Virus record (IMG/VR): IMGVR_UViG_3300010160_000093
Coordinates: 1-41,333 of that record
DNA from: a virus
Reading direction: 5' to 3' (one strand)
DNA: 41,333 bases
Part shown: piece after piece, positions 19,024 through 40,376 of the stretch
Layout: the number at the start of each line of letters is the position of its first letter
How positions within the stretch are numbered: position 1 is the first letter of the stretch
Position numbers and translations under genes: made by a program
The notes under the pieces: generated by a model
The model's input: only the letters and a program-made list of their open reading frames with translations
Told to the model about the DNA's origin: nothing
Database searches by the model: none

Positions 19024-19569
19024 ATGGCGTTGCCAGCCTCTCTCTCAACTTGTACAGTTGAAGCAACTTATGTAAATTTAATTGGCAATCCTATTAGTGG
19101 GTCAGTTACTTTTACGCCACAAACCATTCTTAAAGAAACAACTCTTAATGTTATTTTAATGCCCACCGCTATTGTCAAAACTTTAGATGCAACAGGTTCG
19201 TTAAGTTTAACCCTACCTTGCACAAGTGATACAGATGTGACACCACAACCTTTTATTTACACCATAGTTGAGAACTTTACTGGTGGTAGAACCACTCAGA
19301 TTGCCTTACCACTATCGGTTGCTAATACCACCCAAAACCTTGCAGACTTGCTCCCTGCCGTTACAACAGCAGAATCCGCATCTTATATCACCCTTGACCA
19401 ATATCAAGCGCTCCTAGCGCGTTATACAACCGATGAGTTAAGACGCACAATTGTTGTTGATGCCGAGGATTATGATGAAGATTCTGCGACTTATGCAGCA
19501 ACGGCATCAACCGCCGCCGCACTAATCCAAAACAATACCCCTAATCAGTTGATGTTGATGGGACTATAA
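19024..19569 (+). CDS. Fibre-associated protein, paralogue 1
   Basis: 181 residues. The N-terminal domain MALPASLSTCTVEATYVNLIGNP-x-GSVTF ... PFIYTIVENFTGGRTTQIALPL is paralogous to that of the 19762 gene. It looks like a beta-sandwich of tail tip or fibre proteins. The C-terminal half is helical and ends in LMLMGL. No ribosome site is visible before ATG 19024, so translation may be coupled to the upstream gene, whose stop lies only three bases away. Confidence 0.65.
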   Translation: MALPASLSTCTVEATYVNLIGNPISGSVTFTPQTILKETTLNVILMPTAIVKTLDATGSLSLTLPCTSDTDVTPQPFIYTIVENFTGGRTTQIALPLSVANTTQNLADLLPAVTTAESASYITLDQYQALLARYTTDELRRTIVVDAEDYDEDSATYAATASTAAALIQNNTPNQLMLMGL

Positions 19570-19570
19570 A

Positions 19571-19762
19571 ATGGCTGAACCGTATGTACCTATTGCTGAT
19601 TATACAACTTACAATACTCTTTTAACACTTCTTGAAATTACAACTAACGCGACAAGCGCTAACACTACCGCTTTAGTAGCGGCAAAAGCCTCGGCTCTTG
19701 CTTCAAAAAATGCTGTTCTAAATTTAAGTAATACAAATCTATTCTTTTTGGCTGGTGCATAA
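19571..19762 (+). CDS. Short fibre-block protein
   Basis: 63 residues, mostly one Ala/Thr-rich helix, ending NLFFLAGA. The helix and hydrophobic end resemble the C-terminal part of both flanking paralogues, so it may be a detached copy of that part. The stop overlaps the next start (TAATG). Confidence 0.55.
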   Translation: MAEPYVPIADYTTYNTLLTLLEITTNATSANTTALVAAKASALASKNAVLNLSNTNLFFLAGA

Positions 19763-20436
19763 TGGCATTACCAACAAATTTAAGCACAATAACAATAACT
19801 GGCGCTTATGTTGATTATTCAGGGACGGCTATAACAGGTCAGATTACTTTTACTCTTGGCGATGTACTTCGCTCGGGAATTGATAATGTAATGGTTGCTC
19901 CATCTACCGTAGTAGTTCCTTTGGTTGCAGGTGCTTTTTCAGTAACGCTACCAGCCACCAATGACCCCGATGTAATTCCAAACCCCTATACATATACAGT
20001 TGTTGAGTCTTTTGTTGGAGGAAGAACTTACACAATTAGTGTGCCGTATAACGGAGGCTCTTTGGATTTAGCAGATATAAGCCCACTTCCAACTATTGCA
20101 ACTACTTATGTTCAATTAGTAGACGATACAACTTGGACATCTTTAGAGGTTCTAATAGATGCCCTTGATACAAATATCAATCAAACAACCTCAACAATAC
20201 CTGCTTCGGGTAAATACTGGTACATACCAGCCTTTTATGCTACCTATACAGCGGTTGATACTGCCTTCTCTACATATACTGCTTTAACATCAGCAACTCA
20301 TTACCTTGATTATTCTGATATTTCTGCATTTGTAACAACGGCTCAAGCATCGGCTAGTTCTGCAACAGCCAGCCTAGCAACAGCCACCACAAACGCATCC
20401 GCTACAATAAGCCCATTACTTTTAATAGGAGGATAA
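19762..20436 (+). CDS. Fibre-associated protein, paralogue 2
   Basis: 224 residues, paralogue of the 19024 gene: MALPTNLSTITITGAYVDYSG-x-AITGQITF, then NPYTYTVVESFVGGRTYTISVPY. A longer helical C-terminal half (VTTAQASASSATASLATATT) ends LLLIGG. The shared layout points to a tandem duplication that diverged. Likely part of a fibre or tail tip assembly. Confidence 0.65.
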   Translation: MALPTNLSTITITGAYVDYSGTAITGQITFTLGDVLRSGIDNVMVAPSTVVVPLVAGAFSVTLPATNDPDVIPNPYTYTVVESFVGGRTYTISVPYNGGSLDLADISPLPTIATTYVQLVDDTTWTSLEVLIDALDTNINQTTSTIPASGKYWYIPAFYATYTAVDTAFSTYTALTSATHYLDYSDISAFVTTAQASASSATASLATATTNASATISPLLLIGG

Positions 20437-20763
20437 ATGGCAACATCATATAAGGTGCTTGCACAACAAGCGACAACAACATCTTTAGCAAGCATGTACA
20501 CAGTTCCAGCCTCAACTGAAACTATTATTTCAAGCATAGTAGTTGCCAATGTAAGTGCCAGCGATAGAACTTACAGGATTACTATTCAGCCTAATAACGC
20601 AACTTTGGCGCAAAAACACTATATTGCCTACGATGTAACCAGTAAAGCCAATTCAACTACCGCCTACACTCTAGGAATTACACTAGACGCCGCTGACCAA
20701 GTTTATATTTATGGCTCAACAACCGACCTTTCTATTTCTTTATTTGGAAGCGAGATATCATAA
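20437..20763 (+). CDS. Small conserved virion protein
   Basis: 108 residues. Beta-rich: YKVLAQQATTTSLASMYTVPASTETIISSIVVANVSASDRTYRI, then ALDAADQVYIYGSTTDLSISLFG-like end. I know this pattern as a small structural protein in many tailed phages, usually close to fibre genes. It starts where the previous gene stops. Confidence 0.65.
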   Translation: MATSYKVLAQQATTTSLASMYTVPASTETIISSIVVANVSASDRTYRITIQPNNATLAQKHYIAYDVTSKANSTTAYTLGITLDAADQVYIYGSTTDLSISLFGSEIS

Positions 20764-20764
20764 T

Positions 20765-21739
20765 ATGGCAATAACTACCAATGGTTCCGCTGGAACCGTA
20801 CTTGCAGTATCAGCAGATTTAGCACTAGCAATTTCTGATGAATCAGGAACAGGCGTAGTTGTATTTAATACAAGCCCAACTCTTGTAACTCCTGCCCTTG
20901 GAACACCTGCATCAGGAACTCTTACTAACACAACTGGATTACCAGTCAGCGGAATTACAGCCTCAACCTCTACTGCTTTAGGTGTTGGAAGTGTTGAATT
21001 AGGTCACGCAACCGATACAACTTTAGCCCGTGCTTCTGCTGGTAGATTATCTGTTGAAGGCGTTAATGTTGTTACTATTTCTTCCACAGATACGCTTACT
21101 AATAAAACTTTAACATCTCCTACTATTGGTAGTGGTGCTACACATACTGGTTCATCAAGCGGTTCAACAGTATTACAAGCCTCAGCCGCCGCTTCAGGAA
21201 CTTTAACATTACCCGCCGCAACCGATACTCTTGTAGGTAAGGCAACAACAGATACCCTTACAAATAAAACTCTAACAAGTCCTGCAATCAATACAGCAGT
21301 TAATAATGGTCTTAATGCTTCAAATGTTGCGACTGGAACTATCGCCGATAACATAGTCAAGGGCTTAAACGAAGATATAAATGTTGTGGCTTCTGCGGCA
21401 ACTGGAACAATTAACTTTGATGTAACTACTGCCTCAATTTGGTATTACACTTCAAACGCAACAGCCAACCATACTTTGAACTTTAGATACTCAAGTAGCG
21501 TTTCATTAAATACTTTTATGAACACAGGTGATTCACTTACTGTTGTTTGGCTCAATACCAATGGAGCAACTGCTTACTATCCAAGCGCAATTACTATTGA
21601 TGGCAACTCAGTAACTCCTAAAGTTCCTGCTGCTATTACTGCTGGTAATGCTTCATCTATTGATGCGTACTCTTTCACTATTATTAAGACCGCCTCTGCA
21701 ACCTTCACAGTCTTAGAAACACAAACCAAGTTCGCCTAA
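20765..21739 (+). CDS. Tail fibre-like protein with TDTLTNKTLTSP repeats
   Basis: 324 residues from ATG 20765. Low-complexity Thr/Ser/Gly/Ala. TDTLTNKTLTSP occurs twice (about residues 108-119 and 166-177), a motif usual in trimeric fibre shafts where it forms short beta-turn repeats. The last 110 residues form a compact beta domain (SIWYYTSNATANHTLNFRYSSS ... FTIIKTASATFTVLETQTKFA). Probably a fibre that presents or supports the glycine-rich adhesin encoded next. Confidence 0.7.
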   Translation: MAITTNGSAGTVLAVSADLALAISDESGTGVVVFNTSPTLVTPALGTPASGTLTNTTGLPVSGITASTSTALGVGSVELGHATDTTLARASAGRLSVEGVNVVTISSTDTLTNKTLTSPTIGSGATHTGSSSGSTVLQASAAASGTLTLPAATDTLVGKATTDTLTNKTLTSPAINTAVNNGLNASNVATGTIADNIVKGLNEDINVVASAATGTINFDVTTASIWYYTSNATANHTLNFRYSSSVSLNTFMNTGDSLTVVWLNTNGATAYYPSAITIDGNSVTPKVPAAITAGNASSIDAYSFTIIKTASATFTVLETQTKFA

Positions 21740-21752
21740 AGGAGATTTAATA

Positions 21753-24179
21753 ATGCCAATTATTGCTTCTCGCGCAGGTGGCGCTGCTAGTTCTTTTGGT
21801 GGCATGAGAACTTTTGCTCCTGCTTGGGATGGAATCGTTGATTACCTTGTCGTTGCTGGCGGTGGTGGTGCAGGTGGTAATACTGGAAGTGTTGGCGGTG
21901 GCGGTGGTGGTGCAGGTGGTTTAAGAAGTACTGTAACTGCAACAGGCGGTGGTGGTTCATTAGAATCTGCCTTAACTTTAGCATTAAATACTTCATACAC
22001 AGTAACTGTCGGTGCAGGTGGCTCAGGTGTTGGTTCAGCAAGTAATGGAAGCAATTCAGTATTTTCTACTATAACCTCAACTGGTGGTGGCAAAGGTGCT
22101 GAGTATAATGTTGCTGGTACTGGCGCTGGAGGTTCAGGCGGTGGTGGTGTTTATGGTTATGCAACTGGCGGTGCTGGAACAGCAGGTCAAGGTTATGCTG
22201 GAGGAACTTACTCGGGCAATAATGAGGCTGGTGCTGGCGGCGGTGGTGCTGGAGCCGTAGGTGCAAACCAAACTGGCGGTGGCGTTGGCGGTAATGGTGG
22301 CGCTGGTGTAGCCGTTTCTATTTCAGGAAGTTCTGTTACTTATGCTGGCGGTGGTGGTGGAGGAACAGGTTCATCAGGTACAGCAACTGGTGGTACTGGT
22401 GGTTCAGGTGGTGGCGGAAATGGTGGTGGTTCAAGTGGTGTTGGTGGCAACGCTACTGCTAATACTGGTGGTGGCGCTGGCGGTGCTGGAGGACAAGGAG
22501 GAACCGCTGGTTCAAGAGATGGCGGCAACGGCGGTTCAGGAATTGTTATAGCCCGATACTCAGGTACAGAACAAAAAGCATACGGCGGAACTGTAACCAC
22601 ATCAGGTGGTAATACAATTCATACCTTTAACTCATCAGGTGATTTCTATACTGGTTCTGCATTAGCAACAGGTGGAAATACAATTGCATTTAGTGGTTAT
22701 TATTTTATTCATACATTTACCTCATCAGGCACATTTACACCAAGCCAATCACTTATTGCTGACTACTTAGTTGTTGCAGGCGGCGGTGCAGGTGGAGAAG
22801 AAATTGCTGGTGGTGGTGGTGCTGGCGGACTTCGTTCAACTGTAACTGCAACAGGCGGTGGTGGTTCATTAGAATCTGCCTTAACTTTAACTGCTCAAGC
22901 ATATACAGTTACTGTTGGCGCTGGCGGTGCTGGTGTTACTAGCGGTAATGGAGGTAGTGGTTCTAACTCTGTATTTTCTACAATTACCTCAACTGGTGGC
23001 GGTGGCGGTGGAGGTTATGTTTCTGTTGCTAATAATGGTTTATCTGGCGGTTCTGGTGGTGGCGGAAATGCCGCAAGTGGTTATGGTACTGGAGGAACGG
23101 GAACTGTTAATCAAGGTTTTGCAGGTGCTGATGGAAATACTGCTGGCTCAAATCGTGCTGGTGGCGGAGGAGGCGGTGCTGGTGCTGCTGCTGTTGCGAG
23201 TAATGGAAATGCTCCTAACTATCCAACAGGAGGAGCAGGAGTTGCTGTTGCGATAAGTGGTTCATCCATAACTTACGCAGGTGGTGGTGGTGGAAGTTGG
23301 CAATCAGCATTTAATCCAGCAGGAGGTGCTGGTGGTGGTGGTGCAGGTTCGGGTACAACTGGAACTCCTGTCGCTGGTACTGCCAATCTTGGAGGCGGCG
23401 GAGGTGCTGGTTATGGAGGAGGAGTTGCTGGTGGTTCAGGTGGCTCAGGTGTAGTTATTGTTAGATACTCCGTAGCCAAAGCCAATGGTGGAAATATTAC
23501 TAATGATGGAACTTACTGGTATCACACCTTCACATCTAGTGGAACATTTACTCCTAAACAATCATTAACTGCTGACTATCTAGTAGTCGCAGGTGGTGGC
23601 GGTGGAGGAAATAACTACGCAGGTGGTGGCGGCGGAGGAGGCTTAATTTATATTACAGCAGGTTCCTTAACTGCTCAAAACTACACAGTAACAGTTGGTG
23701 CTGGTGGTTCAGTAAATGCTTCAGGTTCAAATACTGTATTTAATTCACAAACCGCAGTAGGTGGTGGAGTTGGTGGAGATAATAATAATAATCAAAAGGG
23801 TGGTAATGGAGGCTCAGGCGGTGGTGGTGCTTCATCAAATACATCTGCTTATAGAGTAGGTGGAACAGCAACTGCTAGCCAAGGTTATGACGGTGGAACT
23901 GGAACTACCATAGGCACTTTTGGTTCAGGCGGCGGCGGAGGAGCAGGTGGTATTGGTGGAAATGGAAGTGGTGGCACAGGAGGAGATGCTGGTGCTGGAC
24001 TTCAATACTTTGGAACTTATTATTCTAATGGCGGTATGGGAAACGGGTCTAGTGCTCCAGGTAGTGCTGGTACTGGGGGAACTGCTGCAAATACTACTCC
24101 AACTGCCAACACAGGCAAAGGTGGTCCATTTGAAAGAACAGGTGCATCAGGTACAGTAATCGTAAGATATGCAATCTAA
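21753..24179 (+). CDS. Glycine-rich adhesin, probable receptor-binding protein
   Basis: 808 residues, about one third Gly, AAAGGAGA before ATG. Three tandem modules each begin with DY-LVVAGGGG (near residues 29, 335 and 605), pass through YTVTVGAGG and end with a GxVIVRY strand. Long Gly-rich runs in such proteins pack as polyglycine-II sandwiches, as in the gp38-type adhesins of T4-like phages. This is the best candidate for host recognition. Modules 1 and 2 share a 51-base identical DNA stretch. Two shorter linkers (TFTSSGTFTP) repeat between modules. Confidence 0.75.
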   Translation: MPIIASRAGGAASSFGGMRTFAPAWDGIVDYLVVAGGGGAGGNTGSVGGGGGGAGGLRSTVTATGGGGSLESALTLALNTSYTVTVGAGGSGVGSASNGSNSVFSTITSTGGGKGAEYNVAGTGAGGSGGGGVYGYATGGAGTAGQGYAGGTYSGNNEAGAGGGGAGAVGANQTGGGVGGNGGAGVAVSISGSSVTYAGGGGGGTGSSGTATGGTGGSGGGGNGGGSSGVGGNATANTGGGAGGAGGQGGTAGSRDGGNGGSGIVIARYSGTEQKAYGGTVTTSGGNTIHTFNSSGDFYTGSALATGGNTIAFSGYYFIHTFTSSGTFTPSQSLIADYLVVAGGGAGGEEIAGGGGAGGLRSTVTATGGGGSLESALTLTAQAYTVTVGAGGAGVTSGNGGSGSNSVFSTITSTGGGGGGGYVSVANNGLSGGSGGGGNAASGYGTGGTGTVNQGFAGADGNTAGSNRAGGGGGGAGAAAVASNGNAPNYPTGGAGVAVAISGSSITYAGGGGGSWQSAFNPAGGAGGGGAGSGTTGTPVAGTANLGGGGGAGYGGGVAGGSGGSGVVIVRYSVAKANGGNITNDGTYWYHTFTSSGTFTPKQSLTADYLVVAGGGGGGNNYAGGGGGGGLIYITAGSLTAQNYTVTVGAGGSVNASGSNTVFNSQTAVGGGVGGDNNNNQKGGNGGSGGGGASSNTSAYRVGGTATASQGYDGGTGTTIGTFGSGGGGGAGGIGGNGSGGTGGDAGAGLQYFGTYYSNGGMGNGSSAPGSAGTGGTAANTTPTANTGKGGPFERTGASGTVIVRYAI
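21930..21980 (+). repeat. 51-bp direct repeat in the adhesin gene, copy A
   Basis: Identical over 51 bases to 22839-22889, coding TVTATGGGGSLESALTL in both modules. Flanking sequence has diverged, so identity here suggests recent exchange. Confidence 0.8.
22839..22889 (+). repeat. 51-bp direct repeat in the adhesin gene, copy B
   Basis: Second copy, 909 bases from copy A and in the same frame (909 is divisible by three). Recombination between the two would delete or duplicate one module without breaking the frame. Confidence 0.8.
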
Positions 24180-24191
24180 CGAGAGGGAAAA

Positions 24192-24392
24192 ATGGCTAAA
24201 GATAATGTAACTAAGATTAAAGAAACAAAGAAAACTCAATGTTTCAGTTTTGAAGTTGTCATGATGGTTCATGTAATCGCCGATAATGAAGCGACTGCTA
24301 AAACTCAACTTGATGACAAAGGTGGAATCGTCACAAAGCGTGATGTAAAATTAGTCAATACACAAACTCTCTACGGAGAAGAAAAGGAATAA
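24192..24392 (+). CDS. Small protein after the adhesin
   Basis: 66 residues, GAGAGGG before ATG. Basic start (MAKDNVTKIKETKKTQ) and a ferredoxin-like or plain alpha/beta core (CFSFEVVMMVHVIADNEATAKTQL). It could assist adhesin folding, as small genes after adhesins often do; no direct evidence. Confidence 0.55.
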   Translation: MAKDNVTKIKETKKTQCFSFEVVMMVHVIADNEATAKTQLDDKGGIVTKRDVKLVNTQTLYGEEKE

Positions 24393-24394
24393 TA

Positions 24395-24733
24395 ATGGCT
24401 CATTATGCGAAAGTAGAAGATGGGGTCGTGACACAAGTTATTGTTGCCGATTCTAAAGAATGGTGTCAGGCGAATTTAGGTGGCGAGTGGATACAGACTT
24501 CCTATAACACTCAAGGCGGAGTAAATAGCCGTGATGGTGGAACTGCTCTGCATAAGAATTATGCTGGAATTGGATACTCATGGGACGGCACAGGTTTTGC
24601 TGCTCCTCAACCATATCCATCTTGGACAAAGAACTCAACAACTTACCTATGGAACGCCCCAACTCCTATGCCAACAGATGATAAGCGTTACTCATGGGAC
24701 GAAGATACCCTCGCTTGGGTAGAAGTAGAATAA
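24395..24733 (+). CDS. Conserved small structural protein
   Basis: 112 residues, AAAGGAA before ATG. Pattern HYAKVEDGVVTQVIVADSKEW ... GEWIQTSYNTQGG ... LHKNYAGIGYSWDGTGF, then P-x-P-SW and a Trp-rich end. This family is common in marine and cyanobacterial phages near fibre genes. Probably virion-associated; role unknown. Confidence 0.7.
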   Translation: MAHYAKVEDGVVTQVIVADSKEWCQANLGGEWIQTSYNTQGGVNSRDGGTALHKNYAGIGYSWDGTGFAAPQPYPSWTKNSTTYLWNAPTPMPTDDKRYSWDEDTLAWVEVE

Positions 24734-24747
24734 CTAAGGAGTAAATC

Positions 24748-25098
24748 ATGGCAGGTACAACAACTAAGGGGTTTAGATACCCAACGGCGGGTGATAACCC
24801 TGCCATTCATACTGACTTCCTTAATTTAGCAACAGATATTGATAACTACTTTAATGCGCCACAAGTTACAACAAGCCTTGTATTTGAGGGTGCTACCGCA
24901 GATGCTTTTGAAACTACACTTACAGTTGTAGACCCAACGGCAGATAGAACTATTACTTTGCCAAATGTAACTGGAACAGTAGTTACAACAGGAGATACTG
25001 GAACGGTAACAAATACTATGTTAGCCAGTACATACGCAACAGATATTTCTGCTTTAGACCGTGCTAGACAAACTGCATTTATGCTTGGTGGAATGTAA
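24748..25098 (+). CDS. Fibre-like short protein
   Basis: 116 residues, AAGGAG before ATG. KGFRYPTAGDNPAIHTDFLNLATDIDNYF is typical for phage fibre N termini that attach to the virion, followed by a shaft-like TADRTITLPNVTGTVVTTG. Ends near the connector genes (start overlaps, TAATG). Confidence 0.65.
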   Translation: MAGTTTKGFRYPTAGDNPAIHTDFLNLATDIDNYFNAPQVTTSLVFEGATADAFETTLTVVDPTADRTITLPNVTGTVVTTGDTGTVTNTMLASTYATDISALDRARQTAFMLGGM

Positions 25099-25879: not shown

Positions 25880-26290
25880 ATGGCAAAGTCGTCTTTTACA
25901 CTCGACTTAATCGGCGACCAAGAGTTAGTTAATGCTCTTAAGGCTGGTGCGCAAGATACCCCTCAAGCAATAGCCCAAGCAATTTATGAAGAAGCCAATG
26001 TTATTTTTGCTAAATCACAAGTTCTAGTTCCAGTAGATACTGGAGTTCTCCGTGGTTCAGGCGGAGTCTCTGCTCCACAAATGGGCAACACAGGTTATTT
26101 TGTAGATATTTTTTATGGTGGTCCCGCCGCTTCTTATGCTCTTTTTGTTCATGAGATTATTGGCAACTATCACAATCCACCGACACAGGCTAAATACCTT
26201 GAGCAACCAGTCATGGAAGCAATGTCTACAATCCAAGAAAACATAAAGGGTAGAATTATTGACATCATACAGAAAGGGCATAGAAACTAA
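25880..26290 (+). CDS. HK97 gp10-like neck protein
   Basis: 136 residues. VPVDTGVLRGSGGVS is the signature of the HK97-gp10-like family, together with YALFVHEI and AKYLEQPVMEAM. It takes part in joining the tail to the head. Four-base ATGG/TAATGG junction with the tail terminator gene. Confidence 0.85.
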   Translation: MAKSSFTLDLIGDQELVNALKAGAQDTPQAIAQAIYEEANVIFAKSQVLVPVDTGVLRGSGGVSAPQMGNTGYFVDIFYGGPAASYALFVHEIIGNYHNPPTQAKYLEQPVMEAMSTIQENIKGRIIDIIQKGHRN

Positions 26291-26691
26291 TGGCAACTAT
26301 TCTTGAATCAGTAGGTGACTATTTAGTTACTAATAGCCAAGGAACTCTTGGAACTAACATCTTTTTAGGAACTCTTCCTGAAACACCTGACGCTTGTGTA
26401 GCAGTTTATGAGAACGCTGGAAATTCCCCAACATTTACTATGGGGTCAGGCGGTATCAGAATTGACTACCCAATGCTTCAAATTATCTGCCGAGCAGGTA
26501 GAGAAGATTATCCAACGGCTAGAGACAAAGCAGAAACAATTCGCGTTTTACTCGCGTCGGTGCTTGAACAATCGGTCTCAGGGGTGCATATTATGAGGAT
26601 TGAACCGATGGGTTCAGTAAATATGTTAGGAGTAGACCCGAAGTACCGCCCACTAATCTCGGTGAATTTCCGATGCTTAGTGAGAATGTAA
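26290..26691 (+). CDS. Tail terminator protein
   Basis: 133 residues. NIFLGTLPETPDACVAVYENAG, YPMLQIICRAGREDYPTARDKAETIRVLL, and a beta-strand end PLISVNFRCLVRM, typical of minor capsid/tail terminator proteins that cap the tail tube at the head side. It overlaps the next gene by 19 bases. Confidence 0.75.
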   Translation: MATILESVGDYLVTNSQGTLGTNIFLGTLPETPDACVAVYENAGNSPTFTMGSGGIRIDYPMLQIICRAGREDYPTARDKAETIRVLLASVLEQSVSGVHIMRIEPMGSVNMLGVDPKYRPLISVNFRCLVRM

Positions 26692-26861
26692 ACGAGGAGC
26701 CAACGGCTCCGCAAGAGAGAGTGGTAGACCCGTATGGCAGAAACGCAACAACCGATGAGTTCCAACGATGCTGGAAATGTGACAGGCTCCTCTTCGAGAG
26801 TGCAACGCGCCCGTGGAGTATCCGATGCCCAAGGTGTAAATCCAAAAATAAATCAGGATGA
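26673..26861 (+). CDS. Com-like zinc-finger protein
   Basis: 62 residues. RCWKCDRLLFESATRPWSIRCPRCKSKNKSG is a Mu Com-type CxxC ... CPRCK finger. Com in phage Mu binds RNA and activates translation of the DNA-modification gene mom. No mom-like gene was recognised downstream, so the target is unknown. The first 30 residues are read from a region overlapping the tail terminator gene and may not matter. Confidence 0.65.
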   Translation: MLSENVNEEPTAPQERVVDPYGRNATTDEFQRCWKCDRLLFESATRPWSIRCPRCKSKNKSG

Positions 26862-27120
26862 TTTTTTTAGGGATTTAGATTCTTTAGTTGGTTTTGATAG
26901 ACAACAGACTGGTTGTTCAATCGGCAGATTAGTTGCAAAATTAGATGAACCTTTGCGTTCTAAACTTAATGAAATCATGCGTAATGAAAAAGTAAACTCT
27001 GCTCGTCTTGGCGAGGTTATGTTAGCCTACGGACTTCAAGTATCTTCTAGCGATGTTCTTAGAAGGCATCGACGAAGGCTTCTAGGTAAAGACGGGTGTA
27101 AGTGTCCGAATGAGTCTTGA
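26734..27120 (+). CDS. Helix-turn-helix protein, small-terminase-like
   Basis: Up to 128 residues from ATG 26734; this start overlaps the Com-like gene in another frame by 128 bases, and the real start may be further down (GTG or ATG near 26800). The conserved part is CSIGRLVAKLDEPLRSKLNEIMRN ... LGEVMLAYGLQVSSSDVLRRHRRRLL, a resolvase-like/terminase-small-like DNA-binding domain, then CKCPNES. It may bind phage DNA together with the phosphoesterase that follows (11-base overlap). Confidence 0.6.
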   Translation: MAETQQPMSSNDAGNVTGSSSRVQRARGVSDAQGVNPKINQDDFFRDLDSLVGFDRQQTGCSIGRLVAKLDEPLRSKLNEIMRNEKVNSARLGEVMLAYGLQVSSSDVLRRHRRRLLGKDGCKCPNES

Positions 27121-28303
27121 TGACGCTTTAGATAATCTGCTTAAGACGAGTGAGATGAACTCAGTTCAAAAAACTGAACCTCGTCAAAGACAAGCAGAGT
27201 GGATGCCTGGGGTCACTTGGCAAGGTGAAGAAGGAACAGTTACTACTCAGCCAATGGAGGGCGACAACTCTCCTGATTGGTCGGGAGTTCTTCGAATGTG
27301 GGGATTAGACCCCGAGCATTTTCAAGTAGTAGAACCAGTTCTTTTCAATGTGTGGGGCGATACTTTAGGAGTTCTTAATCGCCAATGGAAGGGCAAAGTA
27401 GTTCGAAAGGGCAAACAAGAAGTTGCCGATATTGAAGCCTTAATCGAAGAGATAAAGAAACACAAACCTCGAGAGCGTAAACCAATTACAGGTGGAGCAA
27501 GCCTTGTCGTATGTGCCGCAGATTGGCAGACAGGTAAACGAGATGGTGATGGTCTAAAGGGTTTAGTTGGTAGATGGCTCCAAGCAGTTGATGATGTTGA
27601 GTTTAGAATTAAAGAATTAAAAAAGATAGGTCGCCCAATTGATTCAATTACCGTTTTATGCCTAGGTGATTTAGTTGAAGGATGCGATGGTCACTATGAC
27701 ATTCAGACCTTTACAGTTGAAGTTGATAGAAGAGACCAAGTAAAAATTGCTCGTCGTCTCTTAAGAGATGCTCTTATCCGCTGGTCAAAGGTTGTCCCTA
27801 ATATCACCGTTGCGGCAATTGGTGGAAACCATGGTGAGAACCGCAAGAACGGTAAAGCCTTTACAACCCTTAATGACAATGATGATGTAGCCCTAGTTGA
27901 GTCCGTTGCTGAAATTTTCCAAGCCAACCCTGAAGCCTATGGTCACATTCGTTTTGCTATCCCAACAGAGGAGTTAAGTCTTACCCTTGAGGTTAATGGA
28001 AAGATTATTGGAATTACTCATGGACACCTTGCTCGTAGCGCTGGAAGTCCCGAAGCAAAACTTCGCAGGTGGATTGCTGACCAAACTCTAGGACGCCAAT
28101 CAATCGGCGATTGTGACATTTTGGTCTCAGGTCATTATCATTCATTCCGTCTAGCAGATTGGGGAGGAGTCAAATGGCTACAAGCACCAGCCCTCGACGG
28201 GGGAAGCGTTTGGTGGAGACAGTCCAAGGGGGAAGTTGCGGCTGTGGGAGTGCTGACATTCCTAGTGACCAGCGAGGGAGTCTCGGACATCCAAGTATTA
28301 TGA
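27110..28303 (+). CDS. Calcineurin-like metallophosphoesterase
   Basis: 397 residues. After a 125-residue N-terminal region with Trp-rich WMPGVTWQGEEG and a helical linker comes a metallophosphoesterase: VVCAADWQTG (D-x-Q in place of D-x-H), LGDLVEG (Asp187), GGNHGENRK (Asn240, His241), HGH (304-306) and GHYH (341-343), all metal ligands in order. It should cleave a phosphodiester or phosphomonoester. In actinophages such genes are often close to the structural genes; the substrate is unknown. Its stop overlaps the next start (ATGA). Confidence 0.85.
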   Translation: MSLDDALDNLLKTSEMNSVQKTEPRQRQAEWMPGVTWQGEEGTVTTQPMEGDNSPDWSGVLRMWGLDPEHFQVVEPVLFNVWGDTLGVLNRQWKGKVVRKGKQEVADIEALIEEIKKHKPRERKPITGGASLVVCAADWQTGKRDGDGLKGLVGRWLQAVDDVEFRIKELKKIGRPIDSITVLCLGDLVEGCDGHYDIQTFTVEVDRRDQVKIARRLLRDALIRWSKVVPNITVAAIGGNHGENRKNGKAFTTLNDNDDVALVESVAEIFQANPEAYGHIRFAIPTEELSLTLEVNGKIIGITHGHLARSAGSPEAKLRRWIADQTLGRQSIGDCDILVSGHYHSFRLADWGGVKWLQAPALDGGSVWWRQSKGEVAAVGVLTFLVTSEGVSDIQVL

Positions 28304-28584
28304 ACGACCCAAGGGACATCGCCTTATATGCCGCTGAGTTGGTCTCAGGAGAGCGTCAGGACGCCTATGGGCATCCGCTCGATAACTTTACCCGTGCCTC
28401 AAAGATATGGTCTGTAATCCTCGGCTGTGAGGTTTCTGCCGAGCAAGTTGCCCTCTGTATGGTTGGAATGAAGATAGCCCGTGAAGTCAATCAATCTAAG
28501 CCCGATACGGCGGTAGATGGTATTGGCTACTTCTTAACCCTTGGAATGATTCAAGAAGAGCGCTTAAGAAGAGATAATATCTAA
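28300..28584 (+). CDS. DUF6378-like phage protein
   Basis: 94 residues from ATG 28300, chosen for the ATGA overlap with the phosphoesterase gene; the frame is open further upstream but inside that gene. Pattern ERQDAYGHPLDNFTRASKIWSVILG ... VALCMVGMKIAREVNQSKPDTAVDGIGYFLTLGMI. This all-helical family is common in phages and resembles small nucleotide-handling or MazG-type helical bundles; no catalytic role is proven. Confidence 0.75.
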   Translation: MNDPRDIALYAAELVSGERQDAYGHPLDNFTRASKIWSVILGCEVSAEQVALCMVGMKIAREVNQSKPDTAVDGIGYFLTLGMIQEERLRRDNI

Positions 28585-28602
28585 CCCCAGTTGTGATATA
28601 CT
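28583..28602 (+). promoter_or_regulatory. Promoter: AACCCCAGT-N5-TATACT
   Basis: AACCCCAGT (28583-28591) overlaps the stop of the upstream gene, and TATACT (28597-28602) follows in the same GATATACTT context as at 3078. The leader TTGTCC-T-GAGAGGAG is almost the same as that of the 3111 gene. Confidence 0.6.
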
Positions 28603-38812: not shown

Positions 38813-39094
38813 ATGAGCGAAGAAGTAAAGCCAAGTTTAGGAGAGATGATGCGTCGGCTTGATGACCTGACCATGGAAGTCAAGCAGATGAATCTGAATG
38901 TCAGCCAAACTTATCTTCGCAAAGATGTTTACGACTCGGACTCTGAAAGAGTCACTCAAGCCATGAACCACATTACAGACCGTCTTGAAAAGATGGAGAG
39001 TCGCTCCGAATGGGTTATCCGTACCGTTGGAGCGCTCTTTATCTGTACGGTTGTCGGTGCCTCAATGTATGTTGGACAAGTTATCGGGTTGTAG
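38813..39094 (+). CDS. Coiled-coil membrane protein of the lysis cassette
   Basis: 93 residues. Residues 5-65 form a coiled coil (MMRRLDDLTMEVKQMNLNVSQTYL; VTQAMNHITDRLEKME); residues 69-90 (WVIRTVGALFICTVVGASMYVGQVI) form one transmembrane segment at the C-terminal end. This layout matches XhlA/second-holin type proteins. It lies three bases after the endolysin stop and would help lysis timing or membrane targeting. Confidence 0.7.
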   Translation: MSEEVKPSLGEMMRRLDDLTMEVKQMNLNVSQTYLRKDVYDSDSERVTQAMNHITDRLEKMESRSEWVIRTVGALFICTVVGASMYVGQVIGL

Positions 39095-39097
39095 GGC

Positions 39098-39127
39098 TTG
39101 ACAATCTAAACCCCCGTTTAGTACCCT
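39098..39127 (+). promoter_or_regulatory. Sigma-A-like promoter for the recombination operon
   Basis: TTGACA (39098-39103) and TACCCT (39122-39127, 18-base spacing; GTACCC gives 17). AACCCCCG, a relative of the AACCCCAGT box, lies in the spacer. A short leader with GAGAGGAG follows. Confidence 0.5.
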
Positions 39128-39150
39128 CTCCTATAACGAGAGGAGTCCAC

Positions 39151-39693
39151 ATGGACAACGCATTATCAGTAACACCAGTAGATGATTTTGAAATCATCGA
39201 GGAACCAGCCCGTGAGCCATTCGTCGTAGATGACGATTCAAAAGCAGATTGGGCAATGAGAAAACTTGCATCCATTCGACGCAAGCAATTAGATAACAAA
39301 GCAATCTTTGACCGAGAATTACAGAGGGTCTCAGAATGGCTAGAGAAGGTCAATACAGACCTTGAAAGAGATGCTGAATGGTTTGAAGCGAACCTACGCC
39401 CATACGCCCTTCAGGAGCGCTCTAAAGACCGTAAAAGCATACTCCTGCCCCACGGCACCATTAAAACTATCTCAGGTCGAGTTAAATTCGATATTGAGGA
39501 CGAATCTAAGTTCCTTGAATGGGCTGAGACCAATGCCCCTGAATTAGTCCGAGTTAAAAAAGAAGTTGATAAAAAAGCCCTAGGTGCTTTGAATCAGTCA
39601 GAAGATAAAGTAATATCAACCCAAGGCGAAATTGTTCCTTCAGTCAAAGTTGTACCCGCTGAAGTTTCAGTCTCGTTCTTAATAGCAGAGTAG
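39151..39693 (+). CDS. Gam-like host-nuclease inhibitor
   Basis: 180 residues from ATG 39151, set by GAGAGGAG. DDSKADWAMRKLASIRRKQLDNKAIFDRELQRVSEWLEKVNTDLERD is a long coiled-coil start typical of the Mu Gam/Gp157-like group; LRPYALQERSKDRKSILLPHGTIKTISGRVKFDIEDESKFLEWAETNAPELVRVKKEVDKKAL completes it. Gam binds DNA ends and shields them from RecBCD/AddAB-type nucleases (AdnAB in actinobacteria, by inference). Directly before ERF. Confidence 0.82.
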   Translation: MDNALSVTPVDDFEIIEEPAREPFVVDDDSKADWAMRKLASIRRKQLDNKAIFDRELQRVSEWLEKVNTDLERDAEWFEANLRPYALQERSKDRKSILLPHGTIKTISGRVKFDIEDESKFLEWAETNAPELVRVKKEVDKKALGALNQSEDKVISTQGEIVPSVKVVPAEVSVSFLIAE

Positions 39694-39704: not shown

Positions 39705-40376
39705 ATGGAAAACAAATTACCTATCGCTCAAGCATTGAGTGAAGTTATGAAAGCGGTGGGAGCAATCGCAAAGAAGGACAAGAACACAGCCCAAGGATTT
39801 AATTTCCGAGGAATTGATTCTGTCGTTAATGCGGTATCTCCAGCACTTCAAAAGTTCGGTGTAGTCGTGGTGCCTTCAGTTGAAGAGTACGACTATCAAA
39901 CAGTTGAGATTGGACGCAACCGAACAGCAATGGGTCATGTCAGAGTTAAAGTGACCTACACATTCATTGGAGCAAACGGTGATTCACTAAAGGCAACAGT
40001 TGTTGGAGAAGCAATGGACTCAGGCGACAAGGCAACAGCCAAAGCCATGTCAGTTGCTTTCCGTACTGCCTTGCTTCAATCGTTATCACTACCAACCGAT
40101 GAGGTAGACCCTGATGCACATTCTTATGAACGCTCAAGTTCTGAAGATGTTTTAGCATCCGAAGCAGTCATAGCAAAAATTAACCAATCGACAACGATTG
40201 AATCTTTATCCGAGGTCGGTCAGTACATAACCGCGAACAAGGACGCCTACCCCGTTGGACTTCTTGACCAATTCCGTGCCAAGTTCAAAGAGCAACAATC
40301 TAAATTGAACCCACCTAAGTTGGAAGAGGTAATCGAAGATGTCAGCACTATTGAACCAGCCCGAGTTACCGTATAA
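39705..40376 (+). CDS. erf: ERF-family single-strand annealing recombinase
   Basis: 223 residues, GAGAGAGGAAA before ATG. Core: IAQALSEVMKAVGAIAKKDKN-x-AQGFNFRGIDSVVNAVSPALQKFGVVVVPSV ... VKVTYTFIGANGDSLKATVVGEAMDSGDKATAKAMSVAFRTALLQSL, all diagnostic of ERF. It anneals complementary strands in homologous repair and genome circularisation, with Gam and SSB as natural partners. Ends acidic (EEVIEDVSTIEPARVTV). Confidence 0.9.
   Translation: MENKLPIAQALSEVMKAVGAIAKKDKNTAQGFNFRGIDSVVNAVSPALQKFGVVVVPSVEEYDYQTVEIGRNRTAMGHVRVKVTYTFIGANGDSLKATVVGEAMDSGDKATAKAMSVAFRTALLQSLSLPTDEVDPDAHSYERSSSEDVLASEAVIAKINQSTTIESLSEVGQYITANKDAYPVGLLDQFRAKFKEQQSKLNPPKLEEVIEDVSTIEPARVTV

Follow-up and report, generated by a model that had tools for sequence, protein, structure and literature searches.

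The window, that is, the whole 41.3-kb virus record IMGVR_UViG_3300010160_000093 (41,333 bases), contains an ORF at 21753-24179 on the plus strand, which encodes a protein of 808 aa. The protein matches PF21722 (Gly_rich_2) in three stretches (E 1.6e-45; 156.3 bits against a gathering cut-off of 24.3) and phrog_2295, whose function is unassigned. By a profile built in this analysis, the modules span residues 30-269, 337-572, and 608-806. Both Pfam and this profile agree with the initial annotation, which had described three glycine-rich modules here. No match to the protein was found in GenBank phage records, although this silence is weak for a glycine-rich query under low-complexity filtering, and positions 20000-41000 of the window found no match in the same records in megablast mode. 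The features of the locus are as follows.

20711..21739, plus strand: U, fibre-like protein of 342 aa (TNKTLTSP repeats, conserved C-terminus)
21753..24179, plus strand: modular glycine-rich tip protein, 808 aa (ORF, PF21722, PHROG match)
21753..21812, plus strand: N-terminal peptide, residues 1-20, proposed docking plug (common to other kinds of tip behind U)
21840..22559, plus strand: module 1 (G1), residues 30-269 (profile; model of module 1 with Ha)
21930..21980, plus strand: 51-base repeat, copy 1 (exact repeat)
22560..22760, plus strand: long linker with Ha, belonging to module 1, and Hb, belonging to module 2 (linkers of 67 two- and three-module proteins; models)
22761..23468, plus strand: module 2 (G2), residues 337-572 (profile; model and fold matches)
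22839..22889, plus strand: 51-base repeat, copy 2 (exact repeat)
23469..23573, plus strand: short linker with the beta element Hc, belonging to module 3 (linker sequences)
23574..24170, plus strand: module 3 (G3), residues 608-806 (profile; 82-100% identity per block to L048)
24192..24392, plus strand: D1, a 66-aa protein of unassigned function that goes with two- and three-module tips
24395..24733, plus strand: D2, a 112-aa protein (phrog_7759, unassigned function) whose type follows the module number

The AlphaFold2 model of module 2 with its preceding beta element, based on 72 sequences, has a pLDDT of 95.3 and a pTM of 0.93. Its best structural match is the tail fibre of cyanophage Pam3 (7ypx_A; Z 15.3, 175 aligned residues, rmsd 2.4, 32% identity), followed by the tail tip of mycobacteriophage Bxb1 (9d93_Qa; Z 14.3, 179 aligned residues, rmsd 3.0, 31% identity). 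The next matches are the glycine-rich domains of ALK/LTK, with Z of 8.0 or less. The model of module 1 matches Pam3 and Bxb1 with Z of 12.4 and 13.8, respectively. Modules 1 and 2 are therefore predicted to be TNF-like plus glycine-rich modules of the Pam3/Bxb1 type. PDB sequence searches with the protein and with the module profile detected no relative, though the fold search found some. The protein had been annotated as an adhesin, and this reading is now well supported, because the fold of module 2 matches a phage tail fibre and a phage tail tip. Receptor binding by the tip protein is a plausible function. In the parts of a preprint that were available (PMC13252515), polyglycine-rich domains are mentioned together with the central fibre of Bxb1 and a possible contact with lipids.

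The gene follows that of the major capsid protein and precedes the neck/connector (head-tail connector) genes, and a head fibre is therefore possible. The product would then be a capsid-borne fibre or decoration protein, perhaps binding to surfaces but not the main receptor-binding protein. The corresponding place in Arthrobacter phage Kovu, between the genes for the capsid and the head-to-tail stopper, encodes a hypothetical protein of 767 aa, in line with such an assignment. On the other hand, a tail fibre and a tail tip rank highest in the fold search, and the neighbouring genes at 19024-19569, 19762-20436, and 24748-25098 match tail fibre PHROGs. A capsid-borne protein is unlikely in our judgement, and a receptor-binding tip is preferred. 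Part of the Kovu protein (L235, 20369-22672) resembles a major tail protein family.

Related capsid proteins were found in 185 GenBank phages, the best of which is from an Arthrobacter phage (59%). Three genome contigs contain a relative; the nearest (76%) is labelled as an Actinomycetota MAG, and the remaining ones, at 42-43%, as MAGs of Bathyarchaeota and of Deltaproteobacteria. The host is likely to be an actinobacterium. Two other genes of the window are recorded here. The gene at 14103-14864 matches Peptidase_S78_2 as well as PHROGs labelled RNA ligase and DNA methyltransferase, and in Arthrobacter phages Kovu and Ottawa a gene annotated as RNA ligase is located between the portal and capsid genes. 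It is either a problem of labels or a fusion. The 550-aa ORF at 10-1662 on the minus strand shows no PHROG match at E 0.001, and its sole Pfam match is below the cut-off.

Each glycine module (G) is paired with one beta element (H) of ~30 residues, mostly with an HTF-like motif. The order is G then H in module 1, and H then G in modules 2 and 3. In a first census of 99 related proteins (L001-L158), 32 proteins had one module, 53 had two, 14 had three, and none had four. All 53 two-module proteins are arranged as G.H-H.G and all 14 three-module proteins as G.H-H.G-H.G, by automatic count in 65 of these 67 and by eye in L006 and L059. The one-module proteins, judged by position and by eye, comprise 13 G.H, 6 G.H behind another domain, and 13 H.G; none has both or neither. 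In a second census of 66 further proteins (L159-L231 and L237-L314), coarser tests were used, namely linker length for multi-module proteins, and tail length plus a loose motif for one-module proteins. Sixty passed, and the six flagged ones (L188, L223, L312, L231, L209, and L281) all fit one H per G when read by eye, L281 after its start was moved upstream. L231 is an exception in order, being H.G-H.G. By profile hits, 34, 30, 1, and 1 proteins of this set have one, two, three, and four modules, respectively, which became 35, 29, 2, and 0 after L188 and L209 were read. These numbers are not a census of nature: the relatives are the best 80 of 194, 266, 264, and 350, and near-identical or partial genes, 21 of 101 rows that duplicated another in both D2 and label, and three near-identical ORFs of the second set were left out. 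The variation of module number anticipated in the initial annotation is thus seen among relatives, from one to three modules. In L062, a two-module glycine gene cut by the contig end is followed in tandem by another, different one, also with two modules.

The structural models agree with the different order in module 1. The alignment of module 2 with its leading H starts at residue 76 of Pam3 and residue 38 of Bxb1, while that of module 1 starts only from residues 95 and 58. Residues 271-300, which form the strands that follow module 1, are modelled with pLDDT of 96-98. Module 1 is therefore predicted to be a circularly permuted form of module 2. A single-chain pseudo-trimer, in which three modules make up one trimer, was also considered; it was not adopted, as two-module forms are the commonest (53 of 99 in the first census).

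Upstream of the tip gene, U is fibre-like by its repeats only, and its comparison with PDB gave one weak match (E 0.37). For D2, no similarity to solved chains was detected. The conserved C-terminus of U is present at 121 loci. At 116 of them it is followed by a gene at a distance of no more than 80 bases, and these correspond to 80 distinct genes. These genes mostly start with a sequence like M(S)P-I-I-x-S-x-A-G-G-S-A-x-G-F-G-G, whatever kind of tip follows. With a profile made from 56 glycine tips, 22 of the 24 non-glycine tips scored above the 99th percentile of 2399 other ORFs and 16 above the 99.9th, with the remaining 8 below, one of them far below; the highest-scoring control ORFs look like tips themselves. 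Residues 1-20 have low confidence in the isolated model, as might a peptide that folds on a partner. This peptide may attach the tip to U at its conserved end. At the DNA level, conservation of the N-terminal part is among the lowest (0.50-0.58 over the whole set), and a general crossover site is therefore unlikely there.

Tentatively, the end of U may serve as one socket that accepts, through the short N-terminal plug, tips of unrelated folds, and the strict pairing of one H per G with a permuted first module may select which recombinants are viable. We give this extended proposal somewhat less than even chances. The tips would be either a fused chain, G.H-H.G-H.G, or three genes with beta domains (B) and glycine modules (B,B,B or B,B-G,B-G). 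If it is true, phages sharing one core exchange whole receptor-binding sets.

Closely related cores have three, two, one, or no glycine modules at the tip locus. Over long flanks, L051 and L052 match the window at 93-97% identity, but their tip is a different one, with two modules. The change starts within the first 16 codons and fades inside D2. Between the window and L051, identity per 60-base block is 90-100% up to 21780, 10-70% up to 24166, 58-95% up to 24641, and 95-100% beyond, except for the last block at the end of the alignment. In L084 the flank is near-identical to that of the window, and a third kind of tip, present only in part, follows it. Other tips on related cores include a one-module tip in L089, three beta-only genes in L087, L108, and L282, and one beta gene with two beta-glycine fusions in L085, L130, L241, L244, and L260. 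In these last five, a beta domain ending with LYGI is joined to the glycine module in two genes. A small helical gene in L087 (11335-11598) was considered as an XkdW-like chaperone and dropped, as no family was above the cut-off.

Exchange of parts is also implied within glycine-rich genes. From codon 238, at the end of module 1, to the stop codon, L011 and L013 are identical over 1749 bases, and the 1877 bases beyond are 99.95% identical, but their modules 1 differ; L011 starts at the contig edge, and the left breakpoint lies outside. The window and L048 are alike in linker 1 (83-93%) and in linker 2 plus module 3 (82-100%), but unlike in modules 1 and 2; of the neighbours searched for, only D1 and D2 were found in L048. 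L012 and L014 have the linker region alone in common. Overall, linkers are more conserved than modules, with nucleotide identity of 0.78 versus 0.62-0.64 for 78 pairs of three-module genes, and 0.64 versus 0.58-0.59 for 200 pairs of two-module genes. The edges of the swaps are in conserved stretches: the gene start, the module-linker borders, the gene end, and D2.

The phylogenetic comparisons were as follows. On a tree of the core (window 25880-28585, 15 rows), the tip architecture requires 9 changes, against a minimum of 6 and a mean of 10.2 after shuffling, and 31 of 200 shuffles were as low. The architecture appears hardly to follow the core. On the tree of D2 (80 rows), module number requires 11 changes, against a shuffled mean of 27.5 and with none of 200 shuffles as low, on a tree of few columns with many weak forks and long branches, in which near-copies favour such clustering.

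From these alignments it can be seen that related phages hold different tips at this locus, swapped whole or by module. One may argue instead that there is no exchange, that modules diverge fast under selection, and that the apparent swaps are assembly chimeras. Metagenome contigs can indeed be chimeric, and a conserved motif lies at the point where L011 and L013 join, which could have misled an assembler. Yet unrelated kinds of tip are found with the same flanks in many contigs, and L051 and L052, which come from two samples, have the same replaced tip. Such artefacts are extremely improbable as the general cause, and exchange is the preferred explanation.

An exact 51-base repeat is present at 21930-21980 and 22839-22889, corresponding to residues 60-76 and 363-379. 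The spacing is 909 bases, or 303 codons, in frame. This repeat, already reported in the initial annotation, is also present in a second assembly of the same virus. A 58.7-kb IMG/VR contig (L082, L003) is 99.952% identical to the window over 21 kb, with nine mismatches and one gap, and shows no difference in the gene at 21753-24179. The 51-mer is therefore unlikely to be an assembly accident. In an exact scan of IMG/VR, the 51-mer was found in one contig only, this other assembly, in two copies.

The length of the repeat is unusual. It is the longest identical stretch in 93 within-gene pairs of modules from 65 related genes, the runner-up being 31 bases. Random between-gene pairs (n = 780) share at most 36 bases, and sampled between-gene pairs at the same position share at most 44 for module 1 (n = 747), 31 for module 2 (n = 697), and 36 for module 3 (n = 34). 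Between-gene pairs with the identical 17 residues share 41.8 of the 51 bases on average and 48 at most (n = 162, with 8 near-identical or partial copies left out); before these were left out, 7 of 177 pairs reached 51, and the six listed are copies of the same or near-identical genes. Protein conservation alone therefore fails to explain the 51-mer. By these comparisons, its identity exceeds what either chance or protein constraint would give.

The two 909-base units are diverged outside the 51-mer. It is therefore not the scar of a recent duplication, and a recent tandem duplication was rejected as its origin. Most simply, a short stretch would have been copied recently from one of modules 1 and 2 to the other, by gene conversion or template switch, which would make one piece uniform across the two modules without setting the module number. 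Alternatively, the stretch may have been imported by recombination with a phage that carried it in the other module. Phages do exchange modules, and the two copies differ in which other genes match their flanks best, but the exact stretch was found in no other contig of IMG/VR, and thus in no potential donor. Import seems the less probable origin, though it deserves some weight, and copying within the gene is preferred.

The initial annotation had further proposed that recombination between the repeats would alter the module count and so open a route to changes of host range, which the ERF recombinase could favour. In its favour, the repeat is an exact in-frame one whose length is unusual in this family, and a crossover would keep the frame. 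The ERF gene is confirmed at 39705-40376 (PF04404, E 3.7e-25). It is accompanied by a Gam-like gene (39010-39693) and an exonuclease gene (27110-28303, phrog_284), and these three make up a phage recombination set, as would suit a mosaic locus. A crossover at the 51-mer, however, would delete the remainder of G1, Ha and Hb in the long linker, and the first part of G2. The expected product has two modules with one H, and the reciprocal product has four modules with five H. Neither was observed among the 99 proteins or the 66 further ones, and both assemblies that span the gene have three modules (n = 2 only). Nor does any other contig in the IMG/VR scan contain the 51-mer. An active switch at the 51-mer is very unlikely, and the 51-mer is probably not what changes module number. 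Recombination as the source of the differences is upheld by the swaps of modules and tips, but the 51-mer as its agent is not. ERF may have a role in recombination between modules, and host range may change with it.

A crossover between Hb and Hc would yield G.H-H.G, the common two-module form. The longest identical run between these two stretches in the window is 10 bases, and exchange between phages may therefore be the likelier route. Contig ends were considered as a possible sign of population variants. Around D2, contigs end within 500 bases upstream in 9 of 80 cases versus 2 of 80 downstream, and within 3 kb in 25 versus 33; the rate of contig ends inside the tip gene is not raised. L002 and L004, from this virus or a very near one (D1 and D2 100%), begin right behind, or just inside, the 3' neighbour of the gene, and the tip gene itself is missing from both contigs.

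Two other systems of diversification were considered, a retroelement target and an invertible tail-fibre segment. Reverse transcriptase (PF00078) and Resolvase (PF00239) had no match in the 41.3-kb record, which may be a fragment, while 3 and 10 of 14 control genomes were positive, respectively. Neither system was adopted.

Altogether, the gene would be an exchangeable receptor-binding tip, a string of TNF-like plus glycine-rich modules. Tips would be swapped by recombination between co-infecting phages, module number would shift by whole G+H units, and the variable loops of the glycine-rich part would contact the host surface. We regard this explanation as a whole, including the G+H modules, the swapped tips, the proposed docking on U, and the 51-mer as a copying event, as probable. 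It would offer a readable rule for the build and exchange of a probable cell-binding tip in uncultured, probably actinobacterial, phages: a constant N-terminal peptide, one beta element per module, and conserved joints that keep modules whole. The rule predicts which natural recombinants should exist and which should not.

Several elements are already known, namely glycine-rich adhesins, mosaic fibre genes, and metaviromic islands, as far as the consulted parts of these sources go (PMC9608196, PMC12892980, PMC7468147, PMC3909814). The literature consulted did not contain the order rule of one H per G, the permutation of the first module, or the common N-terminal peptide, though they may have been published elsewhere. 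No literature was found that names Gly_rich_2 or PF21722, or that combines freshwater, actinobacteria, phage, tail fiber, and glycine-rich.

Among known systems, gp24 of Pam3 (7ypx) likewise combines a TNF-like and a glycine-rich part in one unit and has a neighbouring small gene in its locus, that of the chaperone gp25, but it has one unit per chain and a helical baseplate-docking domain, according to the sections seen (PMC9608196). The tip protein here has three units, the first of them permuted, and a short N-terminal peptide. The polyglycine-rich tail domain of Bxb1 (9d93), a phage of an actinobacterium, is of the same fold class; neither an H/G order rule nor exchange of tips was found in the portions of the preprint available (PMC13252515). 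In gp38 of T2-type phages and S16, glycine-rich motifs are combined with hypervariable segments, and the tip protein sits on a separate shaft, as described in the excerpts consulted (PMC12892980). Adhesins of the gp38 kind, to which that of PP01 also belongs, bind the receptor from the end of a gp37-type shaft. For these adhesins, going by the title of a 1998 report by Tetart et al., recombination between conserved motifs is said to swap specificity. Unlike gp38, whole modules and module number vary in this tip family. Gp24 of Pam3 is structurally like gp38 of S16 according to its authors, in the part of their paper seen (PMC9608196); gp38 of S16, in which a polyglycine II sandwich is joined to a beta-helix domain, is not among the fold matches listed here, an absence that does not exclude likeness. 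Near-identical core genomes with interchanged host-recognition genes are described in the accessible parts of two reports (PMC7468147, PMC3909814). Beyond such accounts of flexible gene modules and metaviromic islands, the present analysis describes, for one locus, which unit is exchanged, where its edges lie, and which N-terminal peptide the tips share.
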